Part shown: piece after piece, positions 2,830 through 38,615 of the stretch
Layout: the number at the start of each line of letters is the position of its first letter
Numbering within the stretch: the stretch's first letter is position 1
Assembly: GCF_002214185.1 (NCBI RefSeq)
Contig: NZ_CP022161.1
Location: forward strand, 8,253,486-8,317,485
Source: Streptomyces capitiformicae
GTDB taxonomy: Bacteria; Actinomycetota; Actinomycetes; Streptomycetales; Streptomycetaceae
Direction: 5' to 3'
DNA: 64,000 nucleotides
Position numbers and translations under genes: made by a program
The notes under the pieces: generated by a model
The model's database searches: none
Told to the model about the DNA's origin: nothing
Seen by the model: only the letters and a program-made list of their open reading frames with translations

Positions 2830-2854
2830 GACATCTGGAGATCGTGCGAGGTTG
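2830..2854 (-). promoter_or_regulatory. ECF-type promoter element CAACC-N17-GTC
   Basis: On the minus strand CCCGCACAACC is followed after 17 nt by GTCACA, 75 bp before the FG-GAP start at 2755. The same two blocks with identical spacing precede the FG-GAP genes starting at 18227 and 20461 and the PA14-FN3 genes starting at 35839 and 38360. The AAC and GTC cores resemble -35/-10 boxes of extracytoplasmic-function sigma factors. This is an inference from recurrence. Confidence 0.6.
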
Positions 2855-2893
2855 TGCGGGCCGTCGTGGTGCCGGCCGTCGTGGTGCCGACCG

Positions 2894-3289
2894 TCAGGCC
2901 CAGAATTCCGTCTCCTTGTCCATGTCCTCCTGGCACTCGTCGATGTCCGTCATCTTGTCGCCGACGATGCGGAACACGAGGGCGCCGTTCTGTTCGATGC
3001 GCTTGCCGCCGCGCTCGGCGGTGTAGCGGTGCACGGAGACGGCGTGGCCGCGGCCGTCCACGAGGACGCGTTCCAGTTCGACGTTGAAGGTGCCGTCCGT
3101 CTCCTGGAAGAGGCGCTGGTACAGGTTGATGCAGTTGTCCTGGCCCTTGTAGTCGCCGGACAGCAGGTGGTCGCCGGGGACGTGGTGTGTGCAGTCGCCG
3201 GTCATCAGCGAGCGCATAGTGTCCATGTCGCCGCGCGAGAAGGCGTCGTAGCCCTGGCGGACGAGGGCGGCGTGGGGGTGTTCAGCCAT
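2894..3289 (-). CDS. SnoaL/NTF2-like fold protein
   Basis: The 131-residue product has the size and pattern of the SnoaL-like/NTF2 superfamily: an N-terminal helix (ALVRQGYDAFSRGDMDTMRS), then alternating strands including GTFNVELERVLVDGRGHAVSVHRYTAERGGKRIEQN and a C-terminal FRIVGDKMTDIDE. Members form a cone-shaped alpha+beta barrel used either by small-molecule isomerases/cyclases or as a binding domain. The substrate cannot be read from sequence. The ATG at 3289 is preferred over an upstream start at 3349 because homology-like sequence starts at MAEHPH and AGGGAAAG lies upstream. It follows the LLM oxidoreductase on the same strand, 199 bp away, so a shared transcript is possible but not shown. 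Confidence 0.75.
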   Translation of the reverse strand: MAEHPHAALVRQGYDAFSRGDMDTMRSLMTGDCTHHVPGDHLLSGDYKGQDNCINLYQRLFQETDGTFNVELERVLVDGRGHAVSVHRYTAERGGKRIEQNGALVFRIVGDKMTDIDECQEDMDKETEFWA

Positions 3290-3378
3290 GGGGGATCGCC
3301 AACTTTCCCTTGTGTGGGTGTATGGGGCCTGCTGGGCTGATATCAGCAATTATCTTCGCCGGTGCGCTCGCGCGCACG

Positions 3379-3430
3379 CGGGGCCCGTAGGCGGGGCTCG
3401 TAGTCGGGGCCCGTAGGCGGGGCCCGCAGG
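3379..3430. repeat. Four tandem copies of a 13-bp unit
   Basis: Four consecutive 13-mers of the form CGGGGCCCGTAGG, with one to three differences, lie between the LLM oxidoreductase gene and the SnoaL-like gene. No coding role is seen. Confidence 0.75.
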
Positions 3431-3488
3431 CGGCCCACTGACCTGAACCGACCCCATGGATCCACCGGGGCAGTCGAGGTCATCCCCA

Positions 3489-4538
3489 TCAGGCGAACGC
3501 GGGCATGATCCGGTCGTGGATGAGGCGGAGTTGGGTGTTCACGTCGGCCGCCTCCGGGAGGTCGCGGCCGGTGAAGGCCTTGACGAGGGTGCGGTCGGTG
3601 AGGGCGCAGATCATGTGGTTGACGCCGCTGGGGGCGATCTCGCGGCGGATCTTCTCCGCGCACTCCTCCGGGGTGCCGGCGACGGAGAGGCGTTCGGCGA
3701 TGTCCGGGGTGGTCAGTTCGATGCCGCGGGCCAGGTCGCCGGCGGCGATGGCGTCGATGACCGGTTTGAGTTCGCCGGGGTCCACGCCGTTGCGGCGTAG
3801 CTGTTCCTCGGGCATGGAGGAGGCGTAGATGCCGACCATGCTGCGGGCCGCGTCCTTGGCGGCCGCGGAGTCGGGGCCGGTCGCGAAGACGACCCAGGCG
3901 CCGATGTCCAGGGACCGCCAGTCCCGGCCGGCGCGTTCCGCTCCGGCGCGGATGTGCCGTACGGCGTAGTCGTACGCCTCTCGCGTGTAGCTCAGCGCGT
4001 GATGGCAGCCGTCGGACAACTCCCCGGCCGCCTCGAAGGACTTGGGGCCGCGCATCGCTCCGAGCTTGAGCGGCAGCCGGCCTTGGACCGGCCGGGCGAA
4101 GGTGAACAGTCCGTCGTAGGAGAAGAACTCGCCGTCGTACGAGATGGTCCCCTCGTCCAGCAGGGTGCGTACGACGTGCAGGGCTTCCTTGACGCGGGAG
4201 AGGGGGCGGGTGCGGGCCCAGTCGATGCGGTACTGCGCCAGGAGGCCGAAGTTGCCGCTGGACAGTACGCCCTCGGCGCGGCCGTCGGAGAGTTCGTCGA
4301 GCGTGGCCAGGGCCTGGGCGATCAGGGTCGGCTCCCGCAGCGTCACCGGGGAGACGCTCGGGCCCAGGCGGATGCGGTGGGTTCGGGTGGCGGCTGCGGC
4401 GAAGAGCAGCCACAAGTCCTTGTGCCAGGTCTCGTCTGCGGCGTAGCAGGCGTAGAAGCCGAGTTCGTCGGCGAGTTGGATGGAGTCCAGGGAATCGGTG
4501 AGGGGGTAGTCGGGGAGCATCGCGTAGCTGAACTTCAC
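3489..4538 (-). CDS. LLM-class (probably F420-dependent) oxidoreductase
   Basis: The 349-residue protein is a luciferase-like monooxygenase-fold (TIM barrel) oxidoreductase. Typical features are the N-terminal strand MKFSYAMLPDYP, ADELGFYACYAADE, the segment HRIRLGPSVSPVTLREPTLIAQALATLDELSDGRAEGVLSS (given by its start and end only as a family marker at about residues 54-94), and a C-terminal GTPEECAEKIRREI. The lack of FMN-partner motifs and the resemblance to methylenetetrahydromethanopterin-reductase-type enzymes suggest cofactor F420, common in actinomycetes. The substrate is unknown. The GTG at 4538 has AGAAGGTGA about 8 nt upstream. It lies 127 bp downstream of the nSTAND gene on the same strand. 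Confidence 0.85.
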   Translation of the reverse strand: MKFSYAMLPDYPLTDSLDSIQLADELGFYACYAADETWHKDLWLLFAAAATRTHRIRLGPSVSPVTLREPTLIAQALATLDELSDGRAEGVLSSGNFGLLAQYRIDWARTRPLSRVKEALHVVRTLLDEGTISYDGEFFSYDGLFTFARPVQGRLPLKLGAMRGPKSFEAAGELSDGCHHALSYTREAYDYAVRHIRAGAERAGRDWRSLDIGAWVVFATGPDSAAAKDAARSMVGIYASSMPEEQLRRNGVDPGELKPVIDAIAAGDLARGIELTTPDIAERLSVAGTPEECAEKIRREIAPSGVNHMICALTDRTLVKAFTGRDLPEAADVNTQLRLIHDRIMPAFA

Positions 4539-4665
4539 GGGGCGTCACCTTCTGTGGGGAGAGGGGTCGGCTGTGCGTGTGTGTCGTGCTCCGGTTCCTT
4601 CGAGGGTGCGGGCGGTGTCCTTGGACTGTCCAGGGGGCGTGGGGCGTTCACGGGGGTGGCGGGCT

Positions 4666-7600
4666 TCAGCAGGTGCGGCGGTACGGGATGTCCGGGAGGT
4701 ACGTCTTCCAGTCGGCGGGGGAGAGGCCGGAGCCGCCTGCTCGGGTGCAGGTCTGCTGGACGAGGCGGGCGGGGGCGAGGTCGTAGCGTTGGAGGGGGAC
4801 GTTTCCGCCCGAGGCGTAGAGGATGTCGCCGTCCGTGCTGAAGGCGAGGGAGAAGACGGGGTCGCCCGGAGTGGCCAGGGCCGAGCCGAGCCGGCGGCTG
4901 GACGCTGTGTCCCACAGCTGCACGGTTCCGGCGTCACCGGCCACGGCCAGGATCCGGCTGTCGGGAGAGAAGGCCAGGGCGGTCACCGGCTCACCCGTCT
5001 CGGCGAGTGCACCGGTGTACGTCCCGGACAGAACTCCAAGGCGTTCGCGGAGGTCGCCGTCCCAGAGAGTGACCCGGCCCGCGTCGTCGCCGGCCGCGAA
5101 GTAGGAGCCGTCGGAAGAGAAGGCCACAGCCTCGGCGTGGCTTCTCTCGTTGAGTGCCTGCTCCGTCACCCGACCTGCGGGGAGGTCGGCGATCACCGAA
5201 TCGGCGACTACCAGAGCCTTGTCGTGGTGTACCGCCAGGAGGCCGCTGGGTATGCCGGTCAGGGTCTTCGTCTTTCTGGGGCGGTTCTTGCCGGCTTGTG
5301 GGGACTTGGGGATGTCCCACACCTCCACCGTGCCTCCGGACAGATTCCGGGTCGTCATGAGCGTGCCGCCGTCCGCGCTGAGTGCGATGTCCTCGATGTT
5401 CGGGTAGCCGTCCGCGTCGGCGGGAAGGTGGAGCGTCGCGTGGGTTCGGTGAGCTCTGGCGTCCCAGATGGTGATCCGCTGTCGTACTGCGGTGGTGTCG
5501 GAATCGGATCCGGAGTCGGAGTCGGGAGAGCGGTTGCGGGAGTCGGAGGGCGCGGGTTCGAGACGGCCGTACGCGTAGTAGCGGCCGTCGGCACTCCAGG
5601 CCGTCGCTGTCAGACAGTCGTGGATGGTGTCGGGATCCCCGCTTTCGGCGGTGGTGGACTCGCCGCTCAGGGCGAATATGCCGTGGGCGGTGACCGGGTA
5701 GCAGAGGCCTGCCGAAGGTGTGTCCACGATCTGGCCGTCGCGAGGGTCGAGCAGCTGGATCCGCGACCCCTGAGCCGTGCCGGGACGAACGGCCAGGGTA
5801 CGGCCGTCCGGCGCCAACTCGGCTTCGACGAGGGGATTTTGGCGCCAGCGGGCGGTGACGAACGGGCCGAGCCACAGGGAGCGGACCGTCAGGCCATCGC
5901 TGTCGCGGTAGCGCAGGGACCCGGCGGCGAGGTCGAGTTCGAGATGGTCGGGCCGTTCGTTGACCAAGGGGTAGCGGTAGACCGGAGCGTACGAGGCCGA
6001 CAGGCGCCACAACTGGATCTGTCCGACACTCGATGTGGCGAGGAACTCGCCGTCCGCGCTGAACCGGAGTGTGTCCGTCGGCCCGGTCGACAGCGGTCCG
6101 AACTCCTCGCCCGTTTGGGGGTCCCAGCGGCGGACCTCCGATTCCGTGGCCAGGACGAAGGTGCGGCCGTCCGGTGAGAAGGCGAGGCCGCCGTCCGAGC
6201 AGTCGTTCGGGTCTAGTTCCTCTTCTCGGGGCAGGGACAGCTTGCGCTTCTCGGCGATGTCCCAGATCTCCGGGCCGCGTTCGGTGGTGCAGACGGCGAG
6301 CCGACGGTCGTCGGGGCTGATCTCCAGGGCTGAGAGGGACTTGAAGGCCGTCGCGTCCGTCAGTCTCATGCGCAGGCGGCGCTCACGTACGTCCCAGACC
6401 TCGATGGCGATCGACGAAGCCCGTTCGATCGGCATCATGAGCGTGCGGCCACTCCGGCTGAAGGTCGAGACGTCGGCTCCATCGTCGACGAAGCGGTCGG
6501 TGAGACGGCCGGCGAGACGGCCCGCGCGCACATCCCACAGATATACGCCGTCCTCCTTGAACAGCGCGAGCGTACGGCCGTCGGGGGCGACCACCACGTC
6601 GCCGTCCCCGCTCTGCGTGTCGTCGTCGCCGTGCAGGGAGCCGATGCCCCGGTAGGTGTGCGTGAGTCGGTTGGTGCGCAGGTCCCAGGTGCGGACGCTG
6701 TCACGGGACACGGAGATCACCGTGCTGCCGTCGTCGATCAGCCGCTCCTCGGTCGGCGGGGTGGTCTCGGCGGCGTCGGGGACGGTGAAGAAGCCCTGCT
6801 CACGCTGGGCCACGGACGCCAACAGCGCCGACCGGGTCTCCCTGGTGTCCGCCAGCTCCCAGGCGGCCAGGCTCAGTCGCATCGCCTTGACCGGATCCGC
6901 GAACCGCATCCCGTCCGCCACCGCCGCGATCCGCCGGGCCTCCGCCTCCACGTGACGGCGGTCGCTCGTCCGGGACTGCTGCCAGGCCGTGACGCCCGCG
7001 AGGAGGGCGAGGGCGAGGAGTGTGGCGAGGGTGGTGAGGAGGGTTCGGCGGCGGCGGAGGTCGGCGGTGTGGGCGGTGGTGCCGGCGGTGAGGAAGTCGC
7101 GTTCCACCCTCGTCAGGGAGTCGTCGTCCGTGAGGTGTTCCGTCGCCGTGGCCAGGCGGGTGCCCCGGTAGAGGGCGCCCGGGTCTCGGCCCAGGTCGTC
7201 CCAGGCGCGGGCGGCTTCGGTGAGGTGGCGGTGGGTGCGGAGGCGGTCGCGGGCCTCGTCGATCCAGTCCGACAGGCGGGGCCAGGCGGTGATCAGCGCC
7301 TCGTGGGCCAGGTCCACCGTGTTGTCGTCGAGGGTGAGGAGGCGGGCTCGGGTCAGGCGGTCGAGGACGGCGGTGACTTCGGCGGGGGACGCGAAGTCCA
7401 ACTCCGCGCGGTCGACCGGGTGGCGGGTGTCCTGGGCGCCGTCGCCGGGAGTGATCAGGCGGAGGAGGATCAGGCGGGCCAGGGCGGCCTGGTCGGGGGA
7501 GAGGTCCTTGTACATCTCCTCCGCTGTCTGGGCGATCGCACCGTGGACGCCGCCCGCCGCCTCGTACGCCGCCAGCGTGAGGGCGCGGCCCTTCCTGCGG

Positions 7601-8565: not shown

Positions 8566-8588
8566 CGCTCTACGGTCCCCTCGTTCCC

Positions 8589-8632
8589 CCGTGATCCCCG
8601 TGATCCCCGTAATCCCCGTGATCCGGTCACGG
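8589..8632. repeat. Direct repeats of CCCGTGATC ending in an inverted repeat
   Basis: Upstream of the nSTAND gene, CCCCGTGATC-type units recur four times (one with CGTAATC). The last forms the inverted repeat CCGTGA-TCCGG-TCACGG at 8616-8632. The position, 24-67 bp before the nSTAND start, fits an operator or iteron-like binding site, but no binding protein can be named. Confidence 0.5.
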
Positions 8633-8785
8633 TAGGGAGCCGTCCCGCGGGAGACAAGGCGGCTTTCGGCTGTGCGCGCGAACGGTTTTTGTTCGGCGTG
8701 GTGGAGGGGGCCTGCTGAACAACCTCGTGGTCGCTGAACTCGTAGGTGTCCGAGTCATCACTCACACGACACCACGGGGGACCAC

Positions 8786-9565: not shown

Positions 9566-9630
9566 GGGCCCACCACACGCAGCCTGCACGACCGACCCGA
9601 CGTACGACGACAAGAAGGGGAACACCGGCC

Positions 9631-10980: not shown

Positions 10981-11043
10981 CCGGCCACGGCTGGCTGACC
11001 ACAACTCACCAGCTCAGCAAGTCGATCGAACGGGGAGGCAGAC

Positions 11044-13837: not shown

Positions 13838-13839
13838 TC

Positions 13840-16769: not shown

Positions 16770-16860
16770 GAACAATTCGAGGCGGCGAGCCCGGGGCCGG
16801 TCATCCAGACAACCTGGCAGCGGGCTCGCCGCCCTCATACGTTCCCTGCGCTACGGCTGA
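16770..16860 (+). pseudogene. DUF397 gene remnant
   Basis: One frame reads SPGPVIQTTW. After a shift, another reads GLAALIRSLRYG and stops at 16858-16860. Together they match the C-terminal DUF397 signature (compare EPGKVITTTPAGLAALIRNL in the intact gene at 13150). Only the last third is left and it is frameshifted. It is the trace of a third whiJ-like cassette. Confidence 0.55.
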
Positions 16861-18227
16861 AGCATCCCCTCGATGATGTCGCCCTTCACGGACTGGGCGC
16901 CCGTCGTCGTCACGCCCTTCGAGGAACCCCTCAGCAGGACCGAGCCGTAGTTCGCGGTGACGTACAGGTCGGCCTTGCCGTCTCGGTTGGTGTCGCGGAG
17001 GCGTACCGTGCCGCCGAAGACGTCGTCGGACGTCAGCGCGCCCGGGACGCCGGCCGTGTCGCGGGCGAACCACTGGGAACCCGTGGCCGTCAGGCCGGAC
17101 TTGGTGCCCTTGAGGACGTGGACGGCGCCCGCGTAGACGTGGGTGCCCAGCTTCTCGCCGTACACGCCGATCGCCAGGTCCCGGTAGCCGTCGCCGTTGA
17201 CGTCGCCGGCGGAGAGGGACGCGCCGAAGACGTCGTCGGGCTCGGGGGTGTCCTTGATGCCCTTCGTGGCCTGGGTGAAGCGGGCGGACTTGGACGGGCC
17301 CGAGGACGCGCCGTACCAGAGCGTCACTCGGCCCTTGTAGCGGTCGTACAAGGGTGTACCGATGGCGATGTCGCCGTAGCCGTCCTTGTTGAAGTCGGCG
17401 ATCAGGCCGTCTCCGCCGCGTTCGGTCTGGCCGCCGTTGCCCTTGACGGACTCGATGCGCAGGGTCTTGCCGGGGTAGAGCCTGGCCTTGCCGCCGGAGA
17501 TGAACCAGGCGTCCGAGGCGATGTACTCCGGGTACACGACGTCGCCGATGATGACCAGGTCGGTCTTGCCGTCCTTGTTCACCTTGCCGGAGATCACGGC
17601 TGTGGAGTAGAAGGACGAGCCGTCCTTGTCCAGGACGGTCACCGAGCCCTTCACGCCCGACTTCGTGATCGCGCCCCGGTAGACGTACGTCTTGCTGTCG
17701 CGGACCAGGGCCAGGTCCGGCTTGGCGTCGCCGTTGAAGTCGCCGGTGGCGAAGTCGCGGGCCAAGCCCGAGCCGCCCTTGGCGGGGAGGGTGGTGCCGC
17801 CGGACAGGCCCTTCGACGAGCCCCAGAGGATCGTGACCGTGCCGTTGTTCTTCTTCTTGCCGACGTCCTCGCCGTTCGCGGAGACGGCCAGGTCGCCGTA
17901 GCCGTCCTTGTTGAAGTCGGCCGCCGTGCGGACCTCGCCGAAGAAGTCGTCGGGCTCGTCGGCACCGGGAACGCCGGCGCTGGCCTGCGAGACGAACTGG
18001 GTCTTCGTGCCGGGGCCGTTCGCCGTGCCGAAGGTGACGAGGACGCCGCCGCCCTCGCTCTCGTTGAGGTCACGGCCGTACGCGAAGGCCGCGTAGTCGC
18101 GGTGGCCGTCGCCGTTGAAGTCGTCGGTGTACTTGGCTACGGCCGCCGTCGCGGGCGTGGCCAGCGCGAGCGGGGTCAGACCGGAGGCGAGCAGGCCTGC
18201 GGCCATGAGGAACGGGCGTGTGCGCAA
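16851..18227 (-). CDS. Secreted VCBS/FG-GAP repeat protein (second paralogue)
   Basis: The 458-residue product has a signal peptide (LRTRPFLMAAGLLASGLTPLALA, ending near ATAAVAK). Six to seven FG-GAP repeats follow, for example DFNGDGHRDYAAFAYG, DFNKDGYGDLAVSANG, DFNKDGYGDIAIG and DVNGDGYRDLAIGVYG. The repeats suggest a calcium-dependent extracellular beta-propeller. The TTG at 18227 is chosen because GGAG sits 6 nt upstream and the signal peptide then has the usual length. It is expressed from a CAACC-N17-GTC element at 18304-18328, giving a leader of roughly 70 nt. The final codons (LQP, stop TAG) run over the end of a DUF397 remnant on the other strand. Confidence 0.85.
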   Translation of the reverse strand: MRTRPFLMAAGLLASGLTPLALATPATAAVAKYTDDFNGDGHRDYAAFAYGRDLNESEGGGVLVTFGTANGPGTKTQFVSQASAGVPGADEPDDFFGEVRTAADFNKDGYGDLAVSANGEDVGKKKNNGTVTILWGSSKGLSGGTTLPAKGGSGLARDFATGDFNGDAKPDLALVRDSKTYVYRGAITKSGVKGSVTVLDKDGSSFYSTAVISGKVNKDGKTDLVIIGDVVYPEYIASDAWFISGGKARLYPGKTLRIESVKGNGGQTERGGDGLIADFNKDGYGDIAIGTPLYDRYKGRVTLWYGASSGPSKSARFTQATKGIKDTPEPDDVFGASLSAGDVNGDGYRDLAIGVYGEKLGTHVYAGAVHVLKGTKSGLTATGSQWFARDTAGVPGALTSDDVFGGTVRLRDTNRDGKADLYVTANYGSVLLRGSSKGVTTTGAQSVKGDIIEGMLQP

Positions 18228-18303: not shown

Positions 18304-18328
18304 GACCCATAGTGGCACGGGAGGGTTG
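18304..18328 (-). promoter_or_regulatory. ECF-type promoter element CAACC-N17-GTC
   Basis: The minus strand reads CCCGTGCAACCCTCCC, then 17 nt after CAACC comes GTCTTCTG, 77 bp before the TTG start at 18227. The flanking CCCGT and CTCCC and the TCTYCTG downstream of GT are shared almost base for base with the element at 20526-20550. Confidence 0.65.
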
Positions 18329-18982: not shown

Positions 18983-20461
18983 TCAGTTGGCCGCGTTGGC
19001 GCCGAACATCGGGTACGCGTCCGTGGAGACGCCCACCGAGGACGGAGCGAGGGAACGGGAACCGGTCGTGGTGATCTTCGTGCCGTTGGAGGGCAGGTAG
19101 AGCACCGACCCGTTGTAGTCGTTCTCGCCGTACGAACCGGCCGTCAGGTCCGCCCTGCCGTCACCGGTGACGTCGGTGAGCTTCACCTCGCCGCCGAGCT
19201 GGTCGTCCCTCTCGTCCGTGCCGGGGACGCCGGCGGTGGACTGCGCGAAGTACTGGTAGCCAGAGGTGGTGTTCACCCCGGACTCCGAGCCGTACAGGAC
19301 GGTCAGGGCGCCCGCGTTGACGACGCCGTTCAGGTTCTCGCCGGGGGCGCCGACCACCAGGTCGGCCTTGCCGTCGCCGTTGATGTCGCCGAGCGACAGC
19401 TCGCTGCCGAAGAAGTCGCCGCGCTCGGCGGAGCCGGGCACGTTGCCGCTGTCCTGCGTCACGGCGACCGTGGTGGCCGGGCCGGTGGCGGAACCGTAGA
19501 GGATGTGGATCTTGCCGCCGGTGGACGACCCGGGCACGGAGGGCTGGCTGCCGTCCTTCGACGGGTCCCAGTCCTGGCCGGTGACGATGTCGCCGAAGCC
19601 GTCGCCGTTGATGTCGGCGATGCCGGTGATGACGCCGCGCTTCAGCTCGCGCACACCGCCGTCCGCGCCCAGTCCGTCGGCCGCGCCGGGCACGTACCAG
19701 TTGGTGTTGTAGCCGTACTCGCTGTCCGTCTCGAAGCCGTCGACGACCAGATCGGTGCGCTTGTCGCCGTTGGCGTCGCCGGCGGTGAGCATGATCGCGC
19801 CGGTGCCCTTGCCGGAGAGGATGTCCAGCTTGACGGCGTACTGGTCGCCGAACGAACCGGACTTGGAGATGCCGTCCCCGACGACGTACACGACGTTGGA
19901 GGAGTTGCCGATCGCCAGGTCCTCGGTGCCGTCGCCGTCGAAGTCGCCGGCGGCGAGGGAGCGGCCCCACCGGTCGTGCGACGAGGGCGCCAGGTCCTTG
20001 ATCGTCGTGGCGCCGGACAGACCGCTCGCGGAGCCCCACGCGACGAGGACGGTGCCGCCGTCGGTGTCGCCGGACACGTCCTCCGTCGGCGCGGACACGG
20101 CGAGGTCGTCGTAGCCGTCGCCGTTGAAGTCGCCGTACGCGCTGGACCAGCCGAACCAGTCGTCGCTCTCGGCGCTGCCGGGCACGCCGGTGGTGTTCTG
20201 GCTGAAGGTCGTGCGGTTCGTCGAGGTCACGCCGTTCGCCGAGCCGTACAGGGCGACGACCTGGCCGGCGTTCCGCTTTCCGCCGACGGTGGCCCCACCG
20301 GCGGAGTACGCGACGTCGCCGAACCCGTCGCCGTTGAAGTCCGCCACGGGGTGGTGGACCGAGTCGGCCGCCGTCGCGCTCGCGGCCGAGAAGGTGAGCA
20401 GACCGCCCGTCAACGCGGCCGCGCAGGCCGTCGCGAGGGCGAGTCGCAGGTGCTTGTGCAT
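18983..20461 (-). CDS. Secreted VCBS/FG-GAP repeat protein (third paralogue)
   Basis: The 492-residue protein starts with the signal peptide MHKHLRLALATACAAALTGG and is exported after SASATAADS. Seven FG-GAP repeats follow (DFNGDGFGDVAYSAGG, DFNGDGYDDLAVSAPTE, DFDGDGTEDLAIG, DANGDKRTDLVVDG, DINGDGFGDIVTGQ, DINGDGKADLVVGAPGE, DVTGDGRADLTAGSYGE), consistent with a complete seven-bladed propeller. Repeats 1, 2 and 6 have full Ca2+-binding loops. Start: ATG at 20461, with AGGAG 8 nt upstream. It is transcribed from the CAACC-N17-GTC element at 20526-20550 and followed by a small membrane-protein gene. The binding partner of the propeller is unknown. Confidence 0.88.
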   Translation of the reverse strand: MHKHLRLALATACAAALTGGLLTFSAASATAADSVHHPVADFNGDGFGDVAYSAGGATVGGKRNAGQVVALYGSANGVTSTNRTTFSQNTTGVPGSAESDDWFGWSSAYGDFNGDGYDDLAVSAPTEDVSGDTDGGTVLVAWGSASGLSGATTIKDLAPSSHDRWGRSLAAGDFDGDGTEDLAIGNSSNVVYVVGDGISKSGSFGDQYAVKLDILSGKGTGAIMLTAGDANGDKRTDLVVDGFETDSEYGYNTNWYVPGAADGLGADGGVRELKRGVITGIADINGDGFGDIVTGQDWDPSKDGSQPSVPGSSTGGKIHILYGSATGPATTVAVTQDSGNVPGSAERGDFFGSELSLGDINGDGKADLVVGAPGENLNGVVNAGALTVLYGSESGVNTTSGYQYFAQSTAGVPGTDERDDQLGGEVKLTDVTGDGRADLTAGSYGENDYNGSVLYLPSNGTKITTTGSRSLAPSSVGVSTDAYPMFGANAAN

Positions 20462-20525: not shown

Positions 20526-20550
20526 GACCGCTGGAGGTGGGGGAGGGTTG
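20526..20550 (-). promoter_or_regulatory. ECF-type promoter element CAACC-N17-GTC
   Basis: The minus strand has CCCGTACAACCCTCCC with GTCTCCTG 17 nt after CAACC, 65 bp before the ATG at 20461. It is nearly identical in both blocks and in spacing to the element upstream of the paralogue at 18227, although the sequence between the blocks differs. Confidence 0.65.
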
Positions 20551-27343: not shown

Positions 27344-29912
<2,569 letters not shown>

Positions 29913-29966
29913 CGCCGACGGCGTGCACGGTGACGTGCACGGTGAGTGGAAGGAGGGACGTCGAGG

Positions 29967-31145
29967 ATGAGTACCAAGGACTTCATCGAGAAGGACTACT
30001 ACAAGGTCCTCGGCGTGCCCAAGGATGCCACCGAGGCCGAGATCAAGAAGGCGTACCGCAAGCTCGCCCGCGAGTACCACCCGGACGCCAACAAGGGCAA
30101 CGCCAAGGCGGAGGAGCGCTTCAAGGAGATCTCCGAGGCGAACGACATACTCGGTGACCCCAAGAAGCGCAAGGAGTACGACGAGGCCCGCGCCCTCTTC
30201 GGCAACGGCGGCTTCCGTCCCGGACCCGGCGCCGGCGCCGGCTCGTTCAACTTCGACCTGGGCGACCTCTTCGGCGGCGGCCCCCAGGGCGGCCAGGGAG
30301 CGGGCGGCTTCGGCGGCGGGCTCGGCGATGTCTTCGGCGGCCTGTTCAACCGGGGCAGTTCCGGCACCACGCGGGTGCAGCCCCGGCGCGGCCAGGACAT
30401 CGAGTCCGAGGTCACGCTGAGCTTCACCGAGGCCATCGAGGGCGCGACCGTACCGCTCAGGATGTCCTCGCAGTCGCCCTGCAAGGCCTGTTCCGGCACC
30501 GGCGACGCCAACGGCACCCCCCGGGTGTGCCCGACGTGCGTCGGCACCGGCCAGGTCGCGCGGGGCTCCGGCGGCGGCTTCTCGCTGACCGACCCCTGCC
30601 CGGACTGCAAGGGCCGGGGCCTGATCGCCGAGAACCCCTGCGACATCTGCAAGGGCTCGGGCCGCGCCAAGTCGTCCCGCACCATGCAGGTCCGGATCCC
30701 GGCGGGCGTCTCCGACGGCCAGCGGATCCGGCTGCGCGGCAAGGGCGCGCCCGGCGAGCGCGGTGGACCCGCGGGCGACCTGTACGTGGTCGTGCACGTC
30801 GACCCGCACCCGGTGTTCGGCCGCAAGGACGACAACCTCACGGTGACCGTGCCGGTGACGTATCCGGAGGCGGCGCTCGGCGGCGAGGTCAGGGTCCCGA
30901 CCCTGGGCGGTCCGCCGGTCACCCTGAAACTGCCCCCGGGCACCCCCAACGGCCGTACGATGCGGGCCCGCGGCAAGGGCGCCTTCCGCAAGGACGGCAC
31001 CCGCGGGGATCTGCTGATCACGGTCGAGGTGAGTGTCCCGAAGGACCTGTCGGGGAAGGCTCGTGACGCGCTGGAGGCGTATCGCGAGGCGACCGCGGGC
31101 GAGGACCCGCGGGCGGAGCTGTTCCAGGCCGCGAAGGGAGCATGA
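29967..31145 (+). CDS. dnaJ: Co-chaperone DnaJ
   Basis: The 392-residue protein is type I DnaJ: a J domain with the HPD motif (REYHPDANKG, residues about 10-75), a Gly/Phe-rich stretch (FGGGPQGGQGAGGFGGGLGD) and four CxxCxGxG zinc motifs (CKACSGTG, CPTCVGTG, CPDCKGRG, CDICKGSG). The C-terminal substrate-binding domains follow. It stimulates the DnaK ATPase and delivers unfolded clients. The ATG at 29967 is chosen over 29946 because the J domain starts there and GGAGGGACG lies upstream. It overlaps hspR by ATGA. Streptomyces usually has a second dnaJ elsewhere. Confidence 0.97.
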   Translation: MSTKDFIEKDYYKVLGVPKDATEAEIKKAYRKLAREYHPDANKGNAKAEERFKEISEANDILGDPKKRKEYDEARALFGNGGFRPGPGAGAGSFNFDLGDLFGGGPQGGQGAGGFGGGLGDVFGGLFNRGSSGTTRVQPRRGQDIESEVTLSFTEAIEGATVPLRMSSQSPCKACSGTGDANGTPRVCPTCVGTGQVARGSGGGFSLTDPCPDCKGRGLIAENPCDICKGSGRAKSSRTMQVRIPAGVSDGQRIRLRGKGAPGERGGPAGDLYVVVHVDPHPVFGRKDDNLTVTVPVTYPEAALGGEVRVPTLGGPPVTLKLPPGTPNGRTMRARGKGAFRKDGTRGDLLITVEVSVPKDLSGKARDALEAYREATAGEDPRAELFQAAKGA

Positions 31146-31603
31146 GTGTGATGGACGGCCGCCGTAGAAACCCTTACGAGCTGACGGAAGAGACACCGGT
31201 GTACGTCATCTCGGTGGCCGCCCAGCTCTCCGGTCTGCACCCGCAGACTCTGCGTCAGTACGACCGCCTCGGCTTGGTCTCCCCGGACCGCACCGCCGGG
31301 CGCGGCCGCCGCTACTCGGCCCGCGACATCGAACTGCTGCGCACCGTTCAGCAGTTGTCGCAGGACGAGGGCATCAACCTCGCCGGCATCAAGCGCATCA
31401 TCGAGCTGGAGAACCAGGTCGCCGCGCTCCAGGCGAGGGTCGCCGAGATGGAGGCCGCGCTCGACGGCGCCGCCGCGGCGATGCGGCAGCGCGAGGCCGC
31501 GGTGCACGCGTCGTACCGGCGTGACCTGGTGCCGTACCAGGAGATGCAGCAGAGCAGCGCGTTGGTGGTGTGGCGGCCGAAGGGGCGGCAGACGTCGGAC
31601 TGA
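31142..31603 (+). CDS. hspR: Heat-shock repressor HspR (MerR family)
   Basis: The 153-residue protein has a MerR-type winged helix (VYVISVAAQLSGLHPQTLRQ, YDRLGLVSPDRTAGRGRRYS, DIELLRTVQQLSQDEGINLA) and a coiled coil (IIELENQVAALQARVAEMEA). The tail is QMQQSSALVVW-like. HspR binds HAIR elements such as 27344-27364 and represses its own operon, clpB and lon in Streptomyces; DnaK is needed for full binding. The start overlaps the dnaJ stop by 4 bp. The operon ends at the hairpin 31620-31660. Confidence 0.96.
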   Translation: MSVMDGRRRNPYELTEETPVYVISVAAQLSGLHPQTLRQYDRLGLVSPDRTAGRGRRYSARDIELLRTVQQLSQDEGINLAGIKRIIELENQVAALQARVAEMEAALDGAAAAMRQREAAVHASYRRDLVPYQEMQQSSALVVWRPKGRQTSD

Positions 31604-31619
31604 CGCGACGCATCGAGCG

Positions 31620-31660
31620 AAGGGGCCCTGTCGGTACTTCCGGTACCGGCAGGGCCCCTT
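31620..31660. terminator. Hairpin terminator of the dnaK operon
   Basis: Arms 31620-31637 and 31643-31660 (AAGGGGCCCTGTCGGTAC against its complement with one G-T pair, 5-nt loop) lie between hspR and the convergent gene that ends at 31675. Confidence 0.85.
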
Positions 31661-31674
31661 GCGTGGTGTGCCCG

Positions 31675-32217: not shown

Positions 32218-32345
32218 ACGGTGGTCCTTCGCTGGGGGAAAGCCGCTGTCGATGAGAAGGACGCGGGCACCCGGCGTCGCGTTCCACGGCGACACCCCGC
32301 TGGACGCGGCCCACGGACGTGTCGTCGAACCCGGTCACCGTCCCG

Positions 32346-33764
32346 TCACTGGCCGGTCGGCTCGCTCAGTGTGTTCAGCTCGGTCGCGACCACGACGTTC
32401 GCCTCGCCGGTCCACTTGTAGTGGGAGTTCCAGTCGTCGTCGACGGCGTCGATGAAGAAGCAGCGCTCCTCGCCGTCCGGGACGGTCTGGTACTCGTACG
32501 AGGTGGTGTCGGCCGACAGCCACTCCACCTCGCCCGCGTAGCACATCTTCTCCCCCTCGTCGCCGACGAGTTCGCCGCCGTAGACGACGTACCGGGCCAG
32601 GTCGGGCGTCGGGTTGGCGTCCCACTTCAGCTCGAAGCCGTACTCGGTCGGCGTGGCGGTCAGCCCCGTGACGGCGGAGGGCGGTGTGTCGTCCCGGCGC
32701 CGCCCGCTGACGGAGGCGGAGGGCGTGGACTCGTTGCCCGCCGCGTCGACCGCGGTCACCCGGTAGTGGTAGGTGACGCCCACCTCGGCGGTCGCGTCCC
32801 GGTAGGAGAGCTGGTCCGTGGTGCCGACCTGGGTGTAGGTGCCGTCGGCGCTCGCCGCGCGGTGGACCCGGTACGACGACGCCCCCGTGACCGCCGCCCA
32901 GCCGACGCGGATGCCGCCCGCCTCGGAGGCGTCGGTGACGTCCACGCCCTGCGGAACGCCGGGTGCGACCCGGTCGACGGTGGTGACGGCCCGGTCGGCG
33001 GTGCCCGTCGACTCGTTCCCGGCCAGGTCGAGGGCGCGGACCTCGTAGTGGTACGTCTCGCCGGTGACCGGCAGGGTGGCGTCCGTGTACGACGTCCCCG
33101 TGGTCGTCACCAGGGGCTCGGCGAAGGCAGCGCCCTCCGCGCGGCGGTACACGCGGTAGCCGCGGAGGTCCATCTCCTTGTTCTTCAGCCAGATCAGCTC
33201 GGCCTTGCCGGTGGTCTTGTCGTACGCCACCGAGAAGCCCGTCGGGACGAGCGGCTTGACCGTGTCGACGGTCGCCGACGTGCGGGGCGCGTACGCGAAG
33301 GAGACGTTGGCGGCGCCGGTCCAGTTGACGTAGTCGATGCGGAGGGTGTGCTTGCCGGAGGGGATGGTGAGGTTGAGCGTCTTGTTCTGGGTGGTGGAGA
33401 CGTTCGTCCAGAGGCTGATCTTGCGGACGCCGTCGACGTACACCCGGATGCCGTCCTGCGCGGCGGCGGTGAAGGTGAACGGGCCGCCGGAGCCGAAGTC
33501 GCGGGTCACGGTCCAGCGGACGCCGAAGTAGTTCTTCGGCAGGCCGATGGCGGGGGCTCCCGTGCCCCAGTTCTCGCTGATCTTCGAGTCGCAGTCGGTC
33601 TTCTTCGGTGTCCCGGAGAAGGTGGTGTTGCCGTAGAACTGCCGCTTGAAGACGGGGGACGTGCAGGTGACGGCCGCGTTCGCCGTCGTGGCGGTGGCGG
33701 TCAGCAGACCGGCGGCGGTGGCGACCGCGAGGGCGGCGGCCGTCGCGATTCTGGCGGGAGTCAT
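32346..33764 (-). CDS. Secreted PA14-like/fibronectin type III protein (A)
   Basis: The 472-residue protein has a signal peptide (IATAAALAVATAAGLLTATA, cleaved near NAAVTC) and a PA14-like carbohydrate-binding domain at about residues 32-150 (FKRQFYGNTTFSGTPKKTDC, FGVRWTVTRDFGSGGPFTFT, AAQDGIRVYVDGVRKISLW, IPSGKHTLRIDYVNWTGAA). Three fibronectin type III domains follow, each with the YRVYR/YHYEVRALDLAGNES pattern. Such proteins bind glycans or mediate contacts outside the cell; no catalytic domain is present. It lies 32 bp after the larger paralogue at 33797, so both are transcribed together. Three near-identical N-terminal modules occur within 6 kb, pointing to recent tandem duplication. Confidence 0.82.
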   Translation of the reverse strand: MTPARIATAAALAVATAAGLLTATATTANAAVTCTSPVFKRQFYGNTTFSGTPKKTDCDSKISENWGTGAPAIGLPKNYFGVRWTVTRDFGSGGPFTFTAAAQDGIRVYVDGVRKISLWTNVSTTQNKTLNLTIPSGKHTLRIDYVNWTGAANVSFAYAPRTSATVDTVKPLVPTGFSVAYDKTTGKAELIWLKNKEMDLRGYRVYRRAEGAAFAEPLVTTTGTSYTDATLPVTGETYHYEVRALDLAGNESTGTADRAVTTVDRVAPGVPQGVDVTDASEAGGIRVGWAAVTGASSYRVHRAASADGTYTQVGTTDQLSYRDATAEVGVTYHYRVTAVDAAGNESTPSASVSGRRRDDTPPSAVTGLTATPTEYGFELKWDANPTPDLARYVVYGGELVGDEGEKMCYAGEVEWLSADTTSYEYQTVPDGEERCFFIDAVDDDWNSHYKWTGEANVVVATELNTLSEPTGQ

Positions 33765-33796
33765 GGGGCGCTGGGGTCTTTCTCTCTGTGAGGTGG

Positions 33797-35839
33797 TCAG
33801 GTGAGCGTGTGGGCGCCGACGGGCACGGACTCCGTGCCGTCCGCGTACACGGCCGTCACCCGGTAGAAGAGCGTCGTGCCGGCCTTCGCGTGAGAGTCCG
33901 TGTACGAGTAGGTGTTCGCGTCCGCCGTGTCGGTGAGCTTGACGTACGCGGCGGTGGCCGGGTCCCAGCGGTAGACGCGGAAGTGGGCCGCCGGGCCGTT
34001 CGGGTCCTGCTCGGCGTTGTAGTCCCAGCCCATGGACCGGATGCCCTCGGCGCCGAGGAGGACGCCGTAGTCGTCGACGTTCATGGACGCGATCGGCGAC
34101 CCGTCACCCGGGGTGGCCTCGGTGGGCCGCATGTCGAGTTCGGTGGCGCCCACCGTGGGGACCTCGGCCGAGGCGGCGTCGAGGGCGTTGCCGTCCCCGT
34201 CGACGGCGACGACCTTGTAGCGGTAGCTCTCGCCGTCGGGCAGCATCCGGTCGAGGTTCTGGGACCACGTGGTGCCGTAGGGGAGGCTGTCGCTGATGTC
34301 GGTGTAGGTCCACTCGCCGTTCGCGTACACGCCCCGGTGGATCTGGTAGTCGGCGACGTCGGCGGCGGGGCTGTCGTCCCAGTCGAGCTTGATCCCGTTC
34401 TCCACTGGGGTCGCCGTCAGTCCGGTGACCGGGCCGGGGGCCGTGTAGTCGCCGACGTGGTCGACCGTCAGGGAGGCCGAGACGGGGCCGAGGTTGCCGG
34501 CGCCGTCGACGGCGCGGACCGTGTACGTGTATGACGTGGAGCGCTGGACGGAGGTGTCCACGAAGGAGGTGCCGTAGCTGGAGCCGATCGCGGAGCCGTT
34601 CCGGAAGACCTTGAACGTGGTATCCGTGCCCCACGTCTGGTCCCAGGACCAGCTCAGCGTGACGTCGTGCTCGCCGTCCACCGCCTTGAGGTCCTGGGCG
34701 GCGACGGTCGGCGGGGTCCTGTCCCATGTCTCGAACATCGCGGTGCCGGAGGCGGCCGACTCGTTGCCGTGTGTGTCGACGGCGGTGACGACGTAGTAGT
34801 ACCAGTCGCCGGTGGCCGGCGGGGTCTCCGAGTAGTACGACTCGTACTGCCCGCGCTCGCTCACCAGGTTGGCCTCGGGGAGCACGACCGGGTAGGTGGT
34901 CGACCGGTACACGCGGTAGCCGGCCAGGTCGGACGCGGCGACCTGGTCCCAGCGCAGCTCGACCTCCGTCGTCAGCCCTATGTCCCAGTTGTCCTCCACG
35001 CCGGTCGGCGCGGCCGGGGCGGTCGTGTCGACGGTGGTGACACCCTGGTCGGCCGTCCCCGGGGAGACGTTGCCGGCCTTGTCGTAGGCGCGGACCTCGT
35101 AGTAGTAGATGTCTCCCGTCTTGGGCAGCGTGGTGTCCGTGTACGACGTGGAGGTGGTCGTCGCGAGGGTCGCGAGGGGCTTGGTGCCGAACGAGGTGCC
35201 CTTGAGCCGGCGGTATACCCGGTAGCCCGCGAGGTCCATCTCCTTGTTCTTCGCCCAGGTGAACTTGGCGGCACCGGTCGCCTGGTCGTACGTCACCGCC
35301 GGGGCGGTCGGCGTGAGCGGCTTGGTCGTGTCGACCGTGGCCGAGGTCCGGGGCGTGTACGTGAACTTGACCTTGGCGGAGCCGGTCCAGTTGACGTAGT
35401 CGACGCGCAGGGTGTGCCTGCCGGACGGGATGGTGACGTTGACGGTCTTGGAGACGGTCGAGGAAACGTTTTTCCACAGGTCGATCTTGCGGGTGCCGTC
35501 GAGGTAGACCCGGATGCCGTCCAGGGCGGAGGCGGTGAAGGTGAACGGGCCGCCGGAGCCGAAGTCGCGGGTCACGGTCCAGCGGACGCCGAAGTTGTTG
35601 GACGGCAGCCCGGAGGCGGGCGCGCCGGTGCCCCAGTTCTGGTCGATCGCGCTGTCGCAGTCGGTCTTCTGCGGCGTACCGGAGAAGGTGGTGTTCGCGT
35701 AGAACTGCCGCTTGAACACGGGGGAGGCGCAGGTGACGGCCGCGTTCGCCGTCGTGGTGGCGGCGGTCAGTAGACCGCCGGCGGTGGCGAGCACGACGGC
35801 GGTGGCTGCGGTCGCCGTCGTACGTCTGGCTGAGGTCAT
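33797..35839 (-). CDS. Secreted PA14-like/fibronectin type III protein (B)
   Basis: The 680-residue protein has a signal peptide (MTSARRTTATAATAVVLATA, cleaved near NAAVTC) and a PA14-like domain almost identical to that of its neighbours (FKRQFYANTTFSGTPQKTDC, DFGSGGPFTFTASALDGIRV). At least five FN3 domains follow, with repeated YRVYR, YYYEVRAYDKAGNVSPG and YYYVVTAVDTHGNESA motifs. It is the longest of the three paralogues, by extra FN3 units. Start: ATG at 35839, with AGGACCTGAGAGA upstream. It is probably transcribed from the CAACC-N17-GTC element at 35927-35951. A surface adhesion or polysaccharide-binding role is inferred from the domains. Confidence 0.83.
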   Translation of the reverse strand: MTSARRTTATAATAVVLATAGGLLTAATTTANAAVTCASPVFKRQFYANTTFSGTPQKTDCDSAIDQNWGTGAPASGLPSNNFGVRWTVTRDFGSGGPFTFTASALDGIRVYLDGTRKIDLWKNVSSTVSKTVNVTIPSGRHTLRVDYVNWTGSAKVKFTYTPRTSATVDTTKPLTPTAPAVTYDQATGAAKFTWAKNKEMDLAGYRVYRRLKGTSFGTKPLATLATTTSTSYTDTTLPKTGDIYYYEVRAYDKAGNVSPGTADQGVTTVDTTAPAAPTGVEDNWDIGLTTEVELRWDQVAASDLAGYRVYRSTTYPVVLPEANLVSERGQYESYYSETPPATGDWYYYVVTAVDTHGNESAASGTAMFETWDRTPPTVAAQDLKAVDGEHDVTLSWSWDQTWGTDTTFKVFRNGSAIGSSYGTSFVDTSVQRSTSYTYTVRAVDGAGNLGPVSASLTVDHVGDYTAPGPVTGLTATPVENGIKLDWDDSPAADVADYQIHRGVYANGEWTYTDISDSLPYGTTWSQNLDRMLPDGESYRYKVVAVDGDGNALDAASAEVPTVGATELDMRPTEATPGDGSPIASMNVDDYGVLLGAEGIRSMGWDYNAEQDPNGPAAHFRVYRWDPATAAYVKLTDTADANTYSYTDSHAKAGTTLFYRVTAVYADGTESVPVGAHTLT

Positions 35840-35926
35840 GAAGTCTCTCAGGTCCTTCAGTGCGTGATGCCGATCGGTGCGTGATGCCGATCGTCACCGG
35901 CGAGGGGACACCGCCGGTGACGATCA

Positions 35927-35951
35927 GACGCACGAGGGGGGCGTTTGGTTG
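35927..35951 (-). promoter_or_regulatory. ECF-type promoter element CAACC-N17-GTC
   Basis: The minus strand has CCCGTACAACC and, 17 nt later, GTCTGATC, 88 bp before the ATG at 35839. The blocks and spacing are the same as at the FG-GAP genes although the encoded proteins are unrelated. Downstream, CGATCGGCATCACGCAC occurs twice in the leader (35865-35895 region). Confidence 0.65.
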
Positions 35952-35993
35952 TACGGGACGCGTGGGACGCGTCGGTGATCCGGGGTGGGCAGG

Positions 35994-36368
35994 TCAGCCC
36001 AGGTCAGGCGTCCAGTCGCCCAGATAGTCGGCCTTCTCGTACGAGGCGGCCTCCTCGGCGGTGAGCTGCGGGCGGTTCTCCGTGGCCGAGGCGACCGAGA
36101 CGGCGCCGGTGTTGGCGTACTCGCGGAAGAAGGAGTCCTTCCAGGAGTACGTCGTGCCGCCGGAGGTCCAGTCCTGGTAGGGCGCCGCCTTGATGGCCGC
36201 CGGGAGCGACGACTCGCGGATCACCAGGCTGCCCTTCGCGCCGCCGGTGGCGACGGCGGTCGTACGCACCCGCCCGAGGCCACGCCTCCGCCGAGGCCTC
36301 GCGCGTTCGCTCGCGCTCTGTCTCGAAGAGCCCTCGGTCATACCCTCGGTCATACCCTCGGTCATCAC
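35994..36368 (-). pseudogene. Pectinesterase-like C-terminal fragment
   Basis: The last 90 codons read TTAVATGGAKGSLVIRESSL, PYQDWTSGGTTYSWKDSFFR, EYANTGAVSVASATENRPQL, TAEEAASYEKADYLGDW. They match the C-terminal end of bacterial pectinesterases (the EYxNTGxGA...RPxLTxxEAxxYT...YLxxW pattern). The catalytic first part is missing, and the frame runs upstream into an arginine-rich stretch and a 12-bp tandem repeat encoding MTEG units, which is not pectinesterase sequence. It is probably the remnant of a deleted gene. Confidence 0.5.
36331..36366. repeat. Three tandem copies of a 12-bp unit
   Basis: CCCTCGGTCATA occurs three times in a row (the last copy ends in C). It sits at the 5' edge of the pectinesterase remnant and yields in-frame MTEG repeats on the minus strand. 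Nothing else recognisable lies between 36369 and 36651 apart from the widely spaced arms ATTGGCAG/CTGCCAAT (36537 and 36604). Confidence 0.7.
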
Positions 36369-36651
36369 TACAGCCCTTTCGGCCCATGGGGACGACGGAA
36401 ACGAACGGTGTCGGCATGGGGGAGTGGGGCGCTACAGCGCATGTGGGGCTGCTGGGAAAGCTGTTGCGCGTAGCGGGGAGGATAAGGGATGGGACTGTGG
36501 GCCTTCGCTGAGGGTCCCCAGGTCCGTGGGACGGTAATTGGCAGATTTGGCTCGGCTCCGGGGCCGCTGACCGGGGGCTGCGGGGGTCTGGGGTGGGACG
36601 GAACTGCCAATCACTTCCCCGGTTACGGAGGGGAGGGCCGTGTGGTGGTGA

Positions 36652-38360
36652 CTAGCTCTCGCCCTCGGGGGTGTTTGGCTCTGTCAGCGTGACGTACGAG
36701 AACTCTTCGCCGCTGCTCAAGCGGGAGTTGCCGTCGGTGTCCACGGCGACGACGGCCCAGCGGACGGTCTCGCCCTGTGCGTCGCTGAGATCCCTGATGT
36801 ACGTCACCGACTCGTCGAACCAGTCGTAACCGACAGAGTCCCACTGTTCGTACTGCCAGACCCCGTCGATGAGTTGGCCACGATGGATTTCGTAGCGGTC
36901 GACGCTCTCTTCCTCGGGACTGCGCTGCCAGGTGAGCTGGAGGTCGGTGCTCACGACGACACCGGTCAGACCGGTGACGGCAGCCGGGGCGAGCCCGGTC
37001 GCGGGGGCGGTGGCGTTGGCCGGCGCCGATGCGGTGGACTCGTTGCCCATGGTGTCGACGGCGGTGACGGTGTACGTGTAGGCGCGGCTGTGCCGGACAC
37101 GGTCGTCGAGGTAGGAGCGCTGCGACGCGCGTACCTCGCCCACGAGGCGGTCGCCGCGGTAGATCCGGTAGCGCGACAGGTCCTCGGGGACGGGTCTGGT
37201 GGGTGCACGCCATGTCAGCTCGATGCCGGTCGCCACCTTGGTCGTCGCGGTCAGCCCGGGGGGGCGGAGGGTGCGTGATCGCTCCGGTCCACCAACCCGG
37301 GCTCCGACTTGGCCGACTTATTGCCAGCGGCGTCGACGGCCGTGACCCAGTAGCTGTAGAGCAGATGCTCCCTGGCGGTGGTGTCCAGCCAGGCCGCCGA
37401 GGTCACCTTCGCCACCTGGACCACGGGTTCGTCCATGGCGTCGGTCTCCCAGCGTCGGTGGAGGAGGTAGTGCGCCGCGCCCGGCACGGGGTTCCAGGAC
37501 AGGGTGACCCCCGGCTGACCGTCGGTCGCCGTGACGCCCGTCGGGGCCGAGGGCGCGGTCCGGTCAACCGTCGTGACCGGCCGGTCGGCGCCGCCCGCCG
37601 ACTCGTTGCCGGCCTTGTCGTATGCGCGGATCTCGTAGACGTACGTCTCTCCGGTCGCCGGCGGGGAGTCGGTGTACGAGGCGGCAGTCACACGCGCGAG
37701 CCGCTTCCATCCGTCGTCACCCTTCACCCGCCTGTAGACCCGATAACCGGCGAGGTCGAGTTCCCTGTTCCCCGCCCAGGCCAGCCTCACCCTGCCGGTC
37801 GCCTTGTCGTACGTAGCCGACGTGCCGGTCGGGGCGAGAGGTGCGACCTTGTCGACAGCGGCCGAAGTCCGCGGCGAATAGCCGAACTCAACGTGCGCCG
37901 AGCCCGTCCAGTGGGCGAAGTCCACGCGCAGGGTGTGCTTGCCGGAGGGGATACTGACGTCGACCGTCTTCTTCCGCGTGGCGGTGACGTTCTTCCACAG
38001 GTCGATCTTCCGTACGCCGTCGACGTAGACACGGATGCCGTCCTGGGCGGCGGCCGTGAAGGTGAAGGGGCCGCCGGAGCCGAAGTCCCGGGTGAGGGTC
38101 CAGCGAACGCCGAAGTTGTCCTTGGGCACCCCTGAGGCCGGGGCTATGGTCGCCCAGTCTTCGCTGACGGCCGTGTCGCAGTCGGTCTTCTTCGGCGTAC
38201 CGGAGAAGGAGGTGTTGCCGTAGAACTGCCGCTTGAAGACAGGGGACTTGCACGTGGCTGCCGCGCTGGCCGATGTGGCTGTCACGGCCAACAGGCCGCC
38301 TATGGTGCTGAGCACGACGGCACCGGCAACTGCGGCAGTCGTGGCTCTGGCCGGGATCAT
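36652..38360 (-). pseudogene. Secreted PA14-like/FN3 protein (C), split by a one-base frameshift
   Basis: The first frame (38360 to 37251, 369 residues) has a signal peptide, the PA14-like module (FKRQFYGNTSFSGTPKKTDC) and two to three FN3 units ending DHAPSAPPG-stop. A second frame continues with LTATTKVATG-like sequence, IELTWRAPTRPVPEDLSRYR and two more FN3 units to 36652. One extra C in the minus-strand C7 run (37258-37264) would join them as SAPPGLTATTKVATG without a gap, giving about 569 residues. Either the gene is truly broken, or the run is misread, or its length varies. The upstream element at 38413-38437 matches the shared promoter. Confidence 0.78.
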
Positions 38361-38408
38361 GGTCTCCTCGGTCGTGGTCGAAGACGACCGGACGAGGGCC
38401 GCCGACGA

Positions 38409-38615
38409 TCACGACTCCCGGACGGGGCGAATGGTTGTAGCGGGCCTGACGTACCGCAGGAGGGCGGCGAGGCCGTGGGGACCGGTCGTCAGAATGACAC
38501 GGGGTTCGTCGCTCTCGCGGAGGCGGATCGTTCCGTCGGGGGTGGTGGCGAGGTAGAGGCAGTTACCTTCGGGGCCGCCGCTGTACGACGATTTTTGCCA
38601 GTGCGCTTCGGGCAT
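38409..38615 (-). CDS. DUF397 small protein (whiJ-like cassette 2)
   Basis: The 68-residue protein has the DUF397 pattern: HWQKSSYSGGPEGNCLYLAT, GTIRLRESDEPRVILTTGPH, GLAALLRYVR. It follows the XRE-DUF5753 gene after 12 bp and overlaps the promoter of the PA14-FN3 gene. The pair repeats the arrangement at 12294-13344. It is presumed to act with its cognate XRE regulator. Confidence 0.88.
   Translation of the reverse strand: MPEAHWQKSSYSGGPEGNCLYLATTPDGTIRLRESDEPRVILTTGPHGLAALLRYVRPATTIRPVRES
38413..38437 (-). promoter_or_regulatory. ECF-type promoter element CAACC-N17-GTC
   Basis: CCCGCTACAACC is followed after 17 nt by GTCGTGATC on the minus strand, 53 bp before the ATG at 38360. It overlaps the last codons of the DUF397 gene upstream, so the PA14-FN3 gene has its own start point inside the end of that cassette. 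Confidence 0.6.

Follow-up and report, generated by a model that had tools for sequence, protein, structure and literature searches.

The closest known relatives of the promoters considered here are those of the envelope-stress sigma factor sigma-E of Streptomyces coelicolor, which belongs to the extracytoplasmic function (ECF) class. As its published main text and promoter table present it, the sigma-E regulon has promoters with AAC and GTC cores, many targets in the cell envelope, and genes of the LytR-CpsA-Psr (LCP) type among them. In these respects, and with a compatible spacing, it resembles what is found around CAACC-N17-GTC (CAACC and GTC, 17 nucleotides (nt) apart), an element that precedes genes of secreted repeat proteins in a stretch of 64,000 nt from Streptomyces capitiformicae (contig NZ_CP022161.1, positions 8,253,486 to 8,317,485; called the window below). 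The two differ in the bases around the cores: that before GTC is mostly C in the sigma-E regulon and G or T here, and the sites described here have a GTR flank.

A second likeness is to the operons in which an ECF sigma factor, together with its membrane anti-sigma factor, is under its own control. The sigma factor put forward here also has a proposed promoter of its own and a coupled membrane protein; unlike in those operons, the partner carries no recognised anti-sigma domain, and the mRNA is probably leaderless. The factor scores above the cut-off of TIGR02983 (SigE-fam_strep), a family model that names no promoter or function, and for many of the ECF factors of Streptomyces no target is known. 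What is proposed in this case is the factor's own promoter and its likely targets. I consider it probable, going by sequence, that the elements are the ECF-type promoters of a Streptomyces regulon of surface proteins and a small RNA, read by an autoregulated sigma factor of the TIGR02983 family. Most likely the kind of control is a familiar one, and what is new and specific is its membership. The regulon was not found in the open literature searched, a scope outside which subscription papers and supplements lay: the main texts of PMC9205884 and PMC11256431 do not mention FG-GAP, and the locus names tried had no match in PMC3765725.

Five probable promoter elements in the window

The five elements and the genes behind them are as follows.

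2830..2854, minus strand: promoter element CAACC-N17-GTC of FG-GAP gene A; pattern match, position weight matrix (PWM) score 23.1 (training-set site)
1256..2755, minus strand: secreted FG-GAP repeat protein A; Pfam PF01839, 4.7e-45 (for the longer open reading frame, ORF)
18304..18328, minus strand: promoter element of FG-GAP gene B; pattern match, PWM 30.3 (training-set site)
16851..18227, minus strand: secreted FG-GAP repeat protein B; Pfam PF01839, 1.2e-38 (longer ORF)
20526..20550, minus strand: promoter element of FG-GAP gene C; pattern match, and a match to the genome pattern too (L263)
18983..20461, minus strand: secreted FG-GAP repeat protein C; Pfam PF01839, 3e-44 (longer ORF)
35927..35951, minus strand: promoter element of PA14-FN3 gene 1; pattern match, PWM 26.1 (training-set site)
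33797..35839, minus strand: secreted PA14-FN3 protein 1; Pfam PA14 7.6e-12, fn3 1.7e-10
32346..33764, minus strand: secreted PA14-FN3 protein downstream of protein 1; Pfam PA14 3.6e-11
38413..38437, minus strand: promoter element of PA14-FN3 gene 2, in the form CTACAACC; pattern match, PWM 23.0 (training-set site)
37251..38360, minus strand: secreted PA14-FN3 protein 2; Pfam PA14 1.9e-11

An earlier note on this DNA had placed all five sites where they are found, with a spacer of exactly 17 nt, and had put them 53-88 bp before the starts of the genes. Counted from the last base of GTC, the likeliest start codons lie, in the order above, 74, 76, 64, 87 and 52 nt away, which fits, the start codons being uncertain with the crude frame-composition gene caller used. 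The likely starts of proteins A, B and C are GTG at 2755 (chosen by eye), TTG at 18227 and ATG at 20461, and all three proteins have FG-GAP repeats (PF01839) above the cut-off. Only 32 nt separate PA14-FN3 protein 1 from the PA14-FN3 protein downstream of it, and the two are probably on one transcript.

The number of sites in the window exceeds chance. There are 8 matches to CAACC-N17-GTC where 2.92 are expected, a count reached in 1 of 100 shuffles, and the three matches beyond the five (28281, 38808 and 39003) fall within predicted coding ORFs. The ORF around the first of these resembles dnaK, in a plus-strand run (27385-31603) that by eye looks like dnaK-grpE-dnaJ-hspR. PA14-FN3 protein 2 (37251-38360) is shorter than its paralogue at 33797-35839, and an fn3 ORF in a different frame (36652-37236, minus strand) lies downstream of it; the gene may be broken.

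The element across the genome and the genus

Support comes from genes that had no part in finding the element. Of the six strong FG-GAP genes that a Pfam search of the genome gives, three lie outside the window (at 1.60, 6.33 and 7.81 Mb). All three of these held-out genes have CAACC-N17-GTC upstream, at distances of 190, 79 and 85 nt from the predicted start, making six of six with the window genes. In twelve 20-kb background stretches only 2 of 176 genes have it between -300 and +150 of the ORF start. The sole high-scoring one of the two encodes a secreted DUF4232 protein, which may itself be a true target.

The full shape of the element emerges from an alignment of 26 FG-GAP and PA14 sites, cGTRCAACCcTT-N13-gGTCt, in which positions that took no part in the selection are also conserved (T at -2 in 23 of 26 sites, A at -1 in 21, T at +6 in 18). 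The refined pattern, GTACAACCCTT-N13-GGTC, has 48 matches in 37 of 121 Streptomyces genomes and none when reversed. When the pattern prescribes only the cores and leaves the spacer free (3-23 nt), the strict and free-spacer scans together give 52 distinct starts. Of these, 48 have a spacer of 13 nt and four have only another length (6, 6, 10 and 10 nt); 2 matches come from the reversed control. With an AAC -35 core and a GTC -10 core whose distance does not vary, a place ahead of gene starts and repeated occurrence within a regulon, the element is as expected of an ECF (group 4) promoter, and it is most likely, judged from these patterns, a real promoter of that type common to the regulon. Held-out genes, reversed patterns and free spacers uphold in this way the view that one ECF-like promoter stands before unrelated secreted repeat proteins.

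A script assigned 32 of the 48 refined sites to FG-GAP genes, 6 to an RNA gene described below and 10 to other genes. Among these ten are two secreted proteins of one family (45-47% identical to the product of L255, a homologue that has a site in the S. capitiformicae genome), two more secreted proteins (by eye), two related histidine kinases, an ECF sigma gene (L153), L142, whose leader is FG-GAP-like though the locus is not classed as FG-GAP, and two sites that lack an assignment. The element recurs, then, before a sigma gene, an RNA gene, a DUF4232 gene and other families, and the earlier suggestion of shared control across unrelated kinds of gene gains ground. In a first count, 36 FG-GAP-like ORFs were considered and 17 had the exact pattern upstream: 13 of the 31 from relatives and 4 of the 5 from S. 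capitiformicae. FG-GAP proteins (E 1e-9) are present in 20 of 25 Streptomyces genomes searched. In one relative (L105, G017:C579), tandem FG-GAP genes have four separate CAACC-N17-GTC sites, each followed by an inverted repeat that by eye is like CCCCTTCT or AGAAGGGG.

Not every form of the pattern is informative. Bare CAACC-N17-GTC occurs at 574 places in the 11-Mb genome against 414 for its reversed control, too common for the count alone to serve as proof. The earlier note had made CCCG part of the element and suggested a genome search on that basis. Such a search, with CCCGNNCAACC-N17-GTC, did yield one additional FG-GAP promoter, at 1.6 Mb, but only 15 places in all against 12 reversed: four in the window, the one at 1.6 Mb, eight inside predicted ORFs and two (L012 and L021) outside them. 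Beyond the window CCCG is only loosely conserved and I have dropped it from the element, which in the 26-site alignment widens instead to GTRCAACC. GTRCAACC-N17-GTC has 23 matches in the genome against 5 reversed. At least 11 of the 23 are upstream of a plausible target, and most of the others are inside predicted ORFs. The plausible targets are four FG-GAP or PA14 genes, the sigma gene, the genes of the L255 protein and the DUF4232 protein, the RNA gene, and those of a family-4 glycosyltransferase, a small zinc-finger-like protein (by eye) and, tentatively and by eye, glmM. At the glycosyltransferase gene (L265, G000:C1 ~8529733; Pfam Glycos_transf_4) the upstream site reads GTGCAACC-N17-GTC; the enzyme, which I take to be of the WecA/TagO type, is a possible wall-polymer target.

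A candidate sigma factor

Matches to the strict genus pattern included the ECF sigma gene L153, in a search not directed at sigma factors. The S. capitiformicae genome has 57 matches to Sigma70_r2, covering sigma factors of all groups, and when all 57 loci were scanned on the strand of the family match, CAACC-N17-GTC lay within 900 nt upstream of just one of them, L211, which is the ortholog of L153. L211 also has the top matrix score (13.2; the next sigma locus has 9.6).

The orthologs examined agree. GTRCAACC-N17-GTC is upstream of the sigma gene, at most 60 nt from its start, in all 82 of the Streptomyces loci compared, which amount to 66 distinct sequences and are the best 80 of 545 confirmed relatives plus L211 and L153. 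A second Streptomyces set has CAACC-N17-GTC in 24 of 24, one in the form GCACAACC; the S. capitiformicae genome is present in both sets. The six loci fetched from another family all have the CAACT form, GTACAACT-N17-GTC. Motif, fixed spacing, recurrence before several kinds of gene and presence before the sigma gene in each ortholog examined are demonstrated at the level of DNA sequence. As in an autoregulated operon, the sigma gene carries the promoter that its product is proposed to read. In nearly all rows of the 82-locus set GTC is followed by 8 nt and then the GTG start, and the sigma mRNA is probably leaderless because GTC ends so close to the start codon.

The protein matches TIGR02983 with 190.3 bits (cut-off 141.55), and its gene adjoins that of aspartate-semialdehyde dehydrogenase. 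From this asd neighbourhood, the S. coelicolor counterpart is presumably SCO3613. Two studies each mention SCO3613 once, among sigma genes differentially expressed in coculture (PMC12175524) and among proteins more abundant in S. coelicolor (PMC9739823). In 14 of 15 loci examined the sigma gene overlaps by 4 nt a gene for a membrane protein. This protein is conserved in an inner stretch and in an outer part, and by eye it has a single hydrophobic segment.

The sigma promoters also point to FG-GAP genes. A matrix built from them alone (cores only) picks 17 of 42 FG-GAP ORFs in relatives and 4 of 6 in S. capitiformicae, while of the 199 other ORFs nearby, on the same stretches, it picks 5, and of 174 in the background 4 (a test, and a gene filter, different from those behind the 2 of 176 above).

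Several results weigh against this factor as reader of the whole set. By the same matrix 25 of the 42 relatives' ORFs and 2 of the 6 in S. capitiformicae fall below threshold; by eye, some FG-GAP ORFs that lack the element resemble later genes of tandem arrays and others resemble different FG-GAP classes. A weak seventh FG-GAP match in S. capitiformicae (8.52 Mb) has no upstream site. Two of this genome's own FG-GAP promoters do not have GT before ACAACC; at this place gene A has GC and one PA14 site CT. TGTC and a G-tract in the spacer mark most sigma promoters, whereas FG-GAP sites mostly have GGTC and no G-tract; promoters of this sort may be common to several ECF factors. For the membrane partner there is no match to any known anti-sigma domain, and 1 of 11 members matches DUF4232. 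Finally, the sigma gene was found in 39 of the 41 genomes compared, FG-GAP (E 1e-9) in 20 of them. Beyond the genus, 15 of 16 relatives have the sigma gene and none has an FG-GAP match at that threshold. FG-GAP proteins are therefore not a universal target of the sigma factor, and the FG-GAP branch looks like a later addition to its system.

A structured RNA gene

The RNA gene among the likely targets has the following position.

G000:C1 ~8828006-8828105, plus strand: conserved structured RNA of about 100 nt (L235, L355), with its own CAACC-N17-GTC promoter

With a search pattern that included the first 12 nt of the transcript-like stretch, the element followed by this conserved stretch was found in 25 of 121 genomes, and in none with the pattern reversed. 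The loci in relatives (L350-L374) are free-standing, with varied neighbours by the crude gene calls. An alignment of 23 of the 25 (L352, at a contig end, and L366, with masked bases, were left out) folds into an inner stem-loop and a GC-rich, terminator-like hairpin. Two-sided changes occur in 10 of 30 pairs, and the covariation score of 0.253, compared with 0.187 for shuffled alignments, was reached by 0 of 500 shuffles; sliding the pairing partner strongly weakens the signal. A statistic of further pair types is not above the shuffles (358 of 500). When four of the sequences were folded singly, the z-scores lay between -3.2 and -5.5. Covariance models matched no known Rfam family up to E 0.1 (four sources).

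Which sigma factor reads the element?

The most serious competitor as reader is sigma-E (SCO3356 type) itself, alone or with other ECF factors. The spacing is compatible: in Table 1 of PMC6767563 the S. coelicolor hrdD and cwg promoters are CAACC-N17-GTC. The same paper infers that other ECF factors also read most of the sigma-E promoters tested, and joint reading is possible on that ground; it counts LCP genes as sigma-E targets, and an S. capitiformicae LCP gene has CAACC-N17-GTCTG upstream. The flanks tell otherwise. The sigma-E -10 element is CGTC(T), with C before GTC in 90% of the 48 table rows used, but this C is found in 2 of 26 FG-GAP and PA14 sites, which as a set do not have it; in the sigma-E rows AAC is preceded mostly by G at all three positions, whereas T and A precede CAACC in the FG-GAP and PA14 set. 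The earlier note's likening of the elements to SigE promoters holds for the spacing and fails at the bases flanking both cores, and because of these flanks sigma-E itself is the less likely reader, an alternative I regard as unlikely though worth keeping in view. FG-GAP is absent from the main texts of PMC6767563 and PMC10771440. A sigma-E matrix, made from 48 of the 91 rows of Table 1 (the 16-nt form only, chosen by no fixed rule), passes at 8 bits 20 of 42 FG-GAP ORFs in relatives and 4 of 6 in S. capitiformicae, but also 35 of the 199 other ORFs and, in the background, 23 of 174, too weakly selective to serve as a discriminating test. The LCP gene (L087:4962-5090, G000:C1 ~8.52 Mb) has G before CAACC, and its site is nearer the sigma-E flanks.

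A further element had been mentioned in the earlier note as a close variant.

8720..8744, plus strand: weak variant AACAACC-N17-GTA, upstream of the copper amine oxidase pair; from sequence, outside the set

The variant exists, but it lacks the conserved flanks, GTR before CAACC and the C of GTC, and is judged not to belong with the five. The copper amine oxidase gene may use a different ECF promoter, since the copper amine oxidase gene hyaS is reported in PMC10771440 to be a sigma-E target.

It is more doubtful still that a different ECF paralogue of similar specificity is the reader, the sigma gene being merely one of its targets. With 57 Sigma70_r2 matches, of all sigma groups, the genome has no shortage of candidates; the differences in -10 flank and spacer between the sigma promoter and the FG-GAP promoters are what such a reader might leave. 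Yet CAACC-N17-GTC is absent from the 900 nt upstream of each of the other 56 sigma loci, the best of which scores 9.6 to the candidate's 13.2, and autoregulation is common among ECF genes, though not universal.

That the likeness was simply inherited from duplicated FG-GAP and PA14 loci, with no selection on the promoter, is extremely improbable and largely refuted: many FG-GAP promoters do precede paralogues, and some share downstream sequence (e.g. TCTCCTGATCGCCGAC), but the same element stands before the sigma gene, the RNA gene, the DUF4232 gene, another secreted family and histidine kinases, and its spacer varies in sequence while keeping its length, much as the earlier note had argued in finding common descent insufficient.

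What the regulon would mean

I propose that the promoters consist of a -35 element GTRCAACCcTT and a -10 element (G/T)GTC(t), with exactly 17 nt from CAACC to GTC, and that they would serve a regulon made up of the structured small RNA and of secreted surface proteins, FG-GAP and PA14-FN3 proteins among them. The apparent autoregulation is the reason for taking the TIGR02983 sigma factor as the putative reader. Its translationally coupled membrane partner would be the anti-sigma factor, from which an envelope or surface signal would release it. The wider picture, a genus-wide ECF system of the envelope type with a leaderless, autoregulated sigma factor, an unusual membrane anti-sigma factor, and a coat of FG-GAP and PA14-FN3 proteins made along with an RNA of about 100 nt that has a G-rich inner hairpin, is more tentative, and I would put it a little short of an even chance.

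The RNA gene described here is possibly a post-transcriptional arm of the regulon, and if the proposal is true the output of secreted proteins would be coupled with an RNA arm, much as in E. coli sigma-E and its small RNAs. A promoter, its likely reader, a possible anti-sigma factor and a list of targets emerge together, and in standard laboratory strains the role of the FG-GAP proteins thereby becomes testable.

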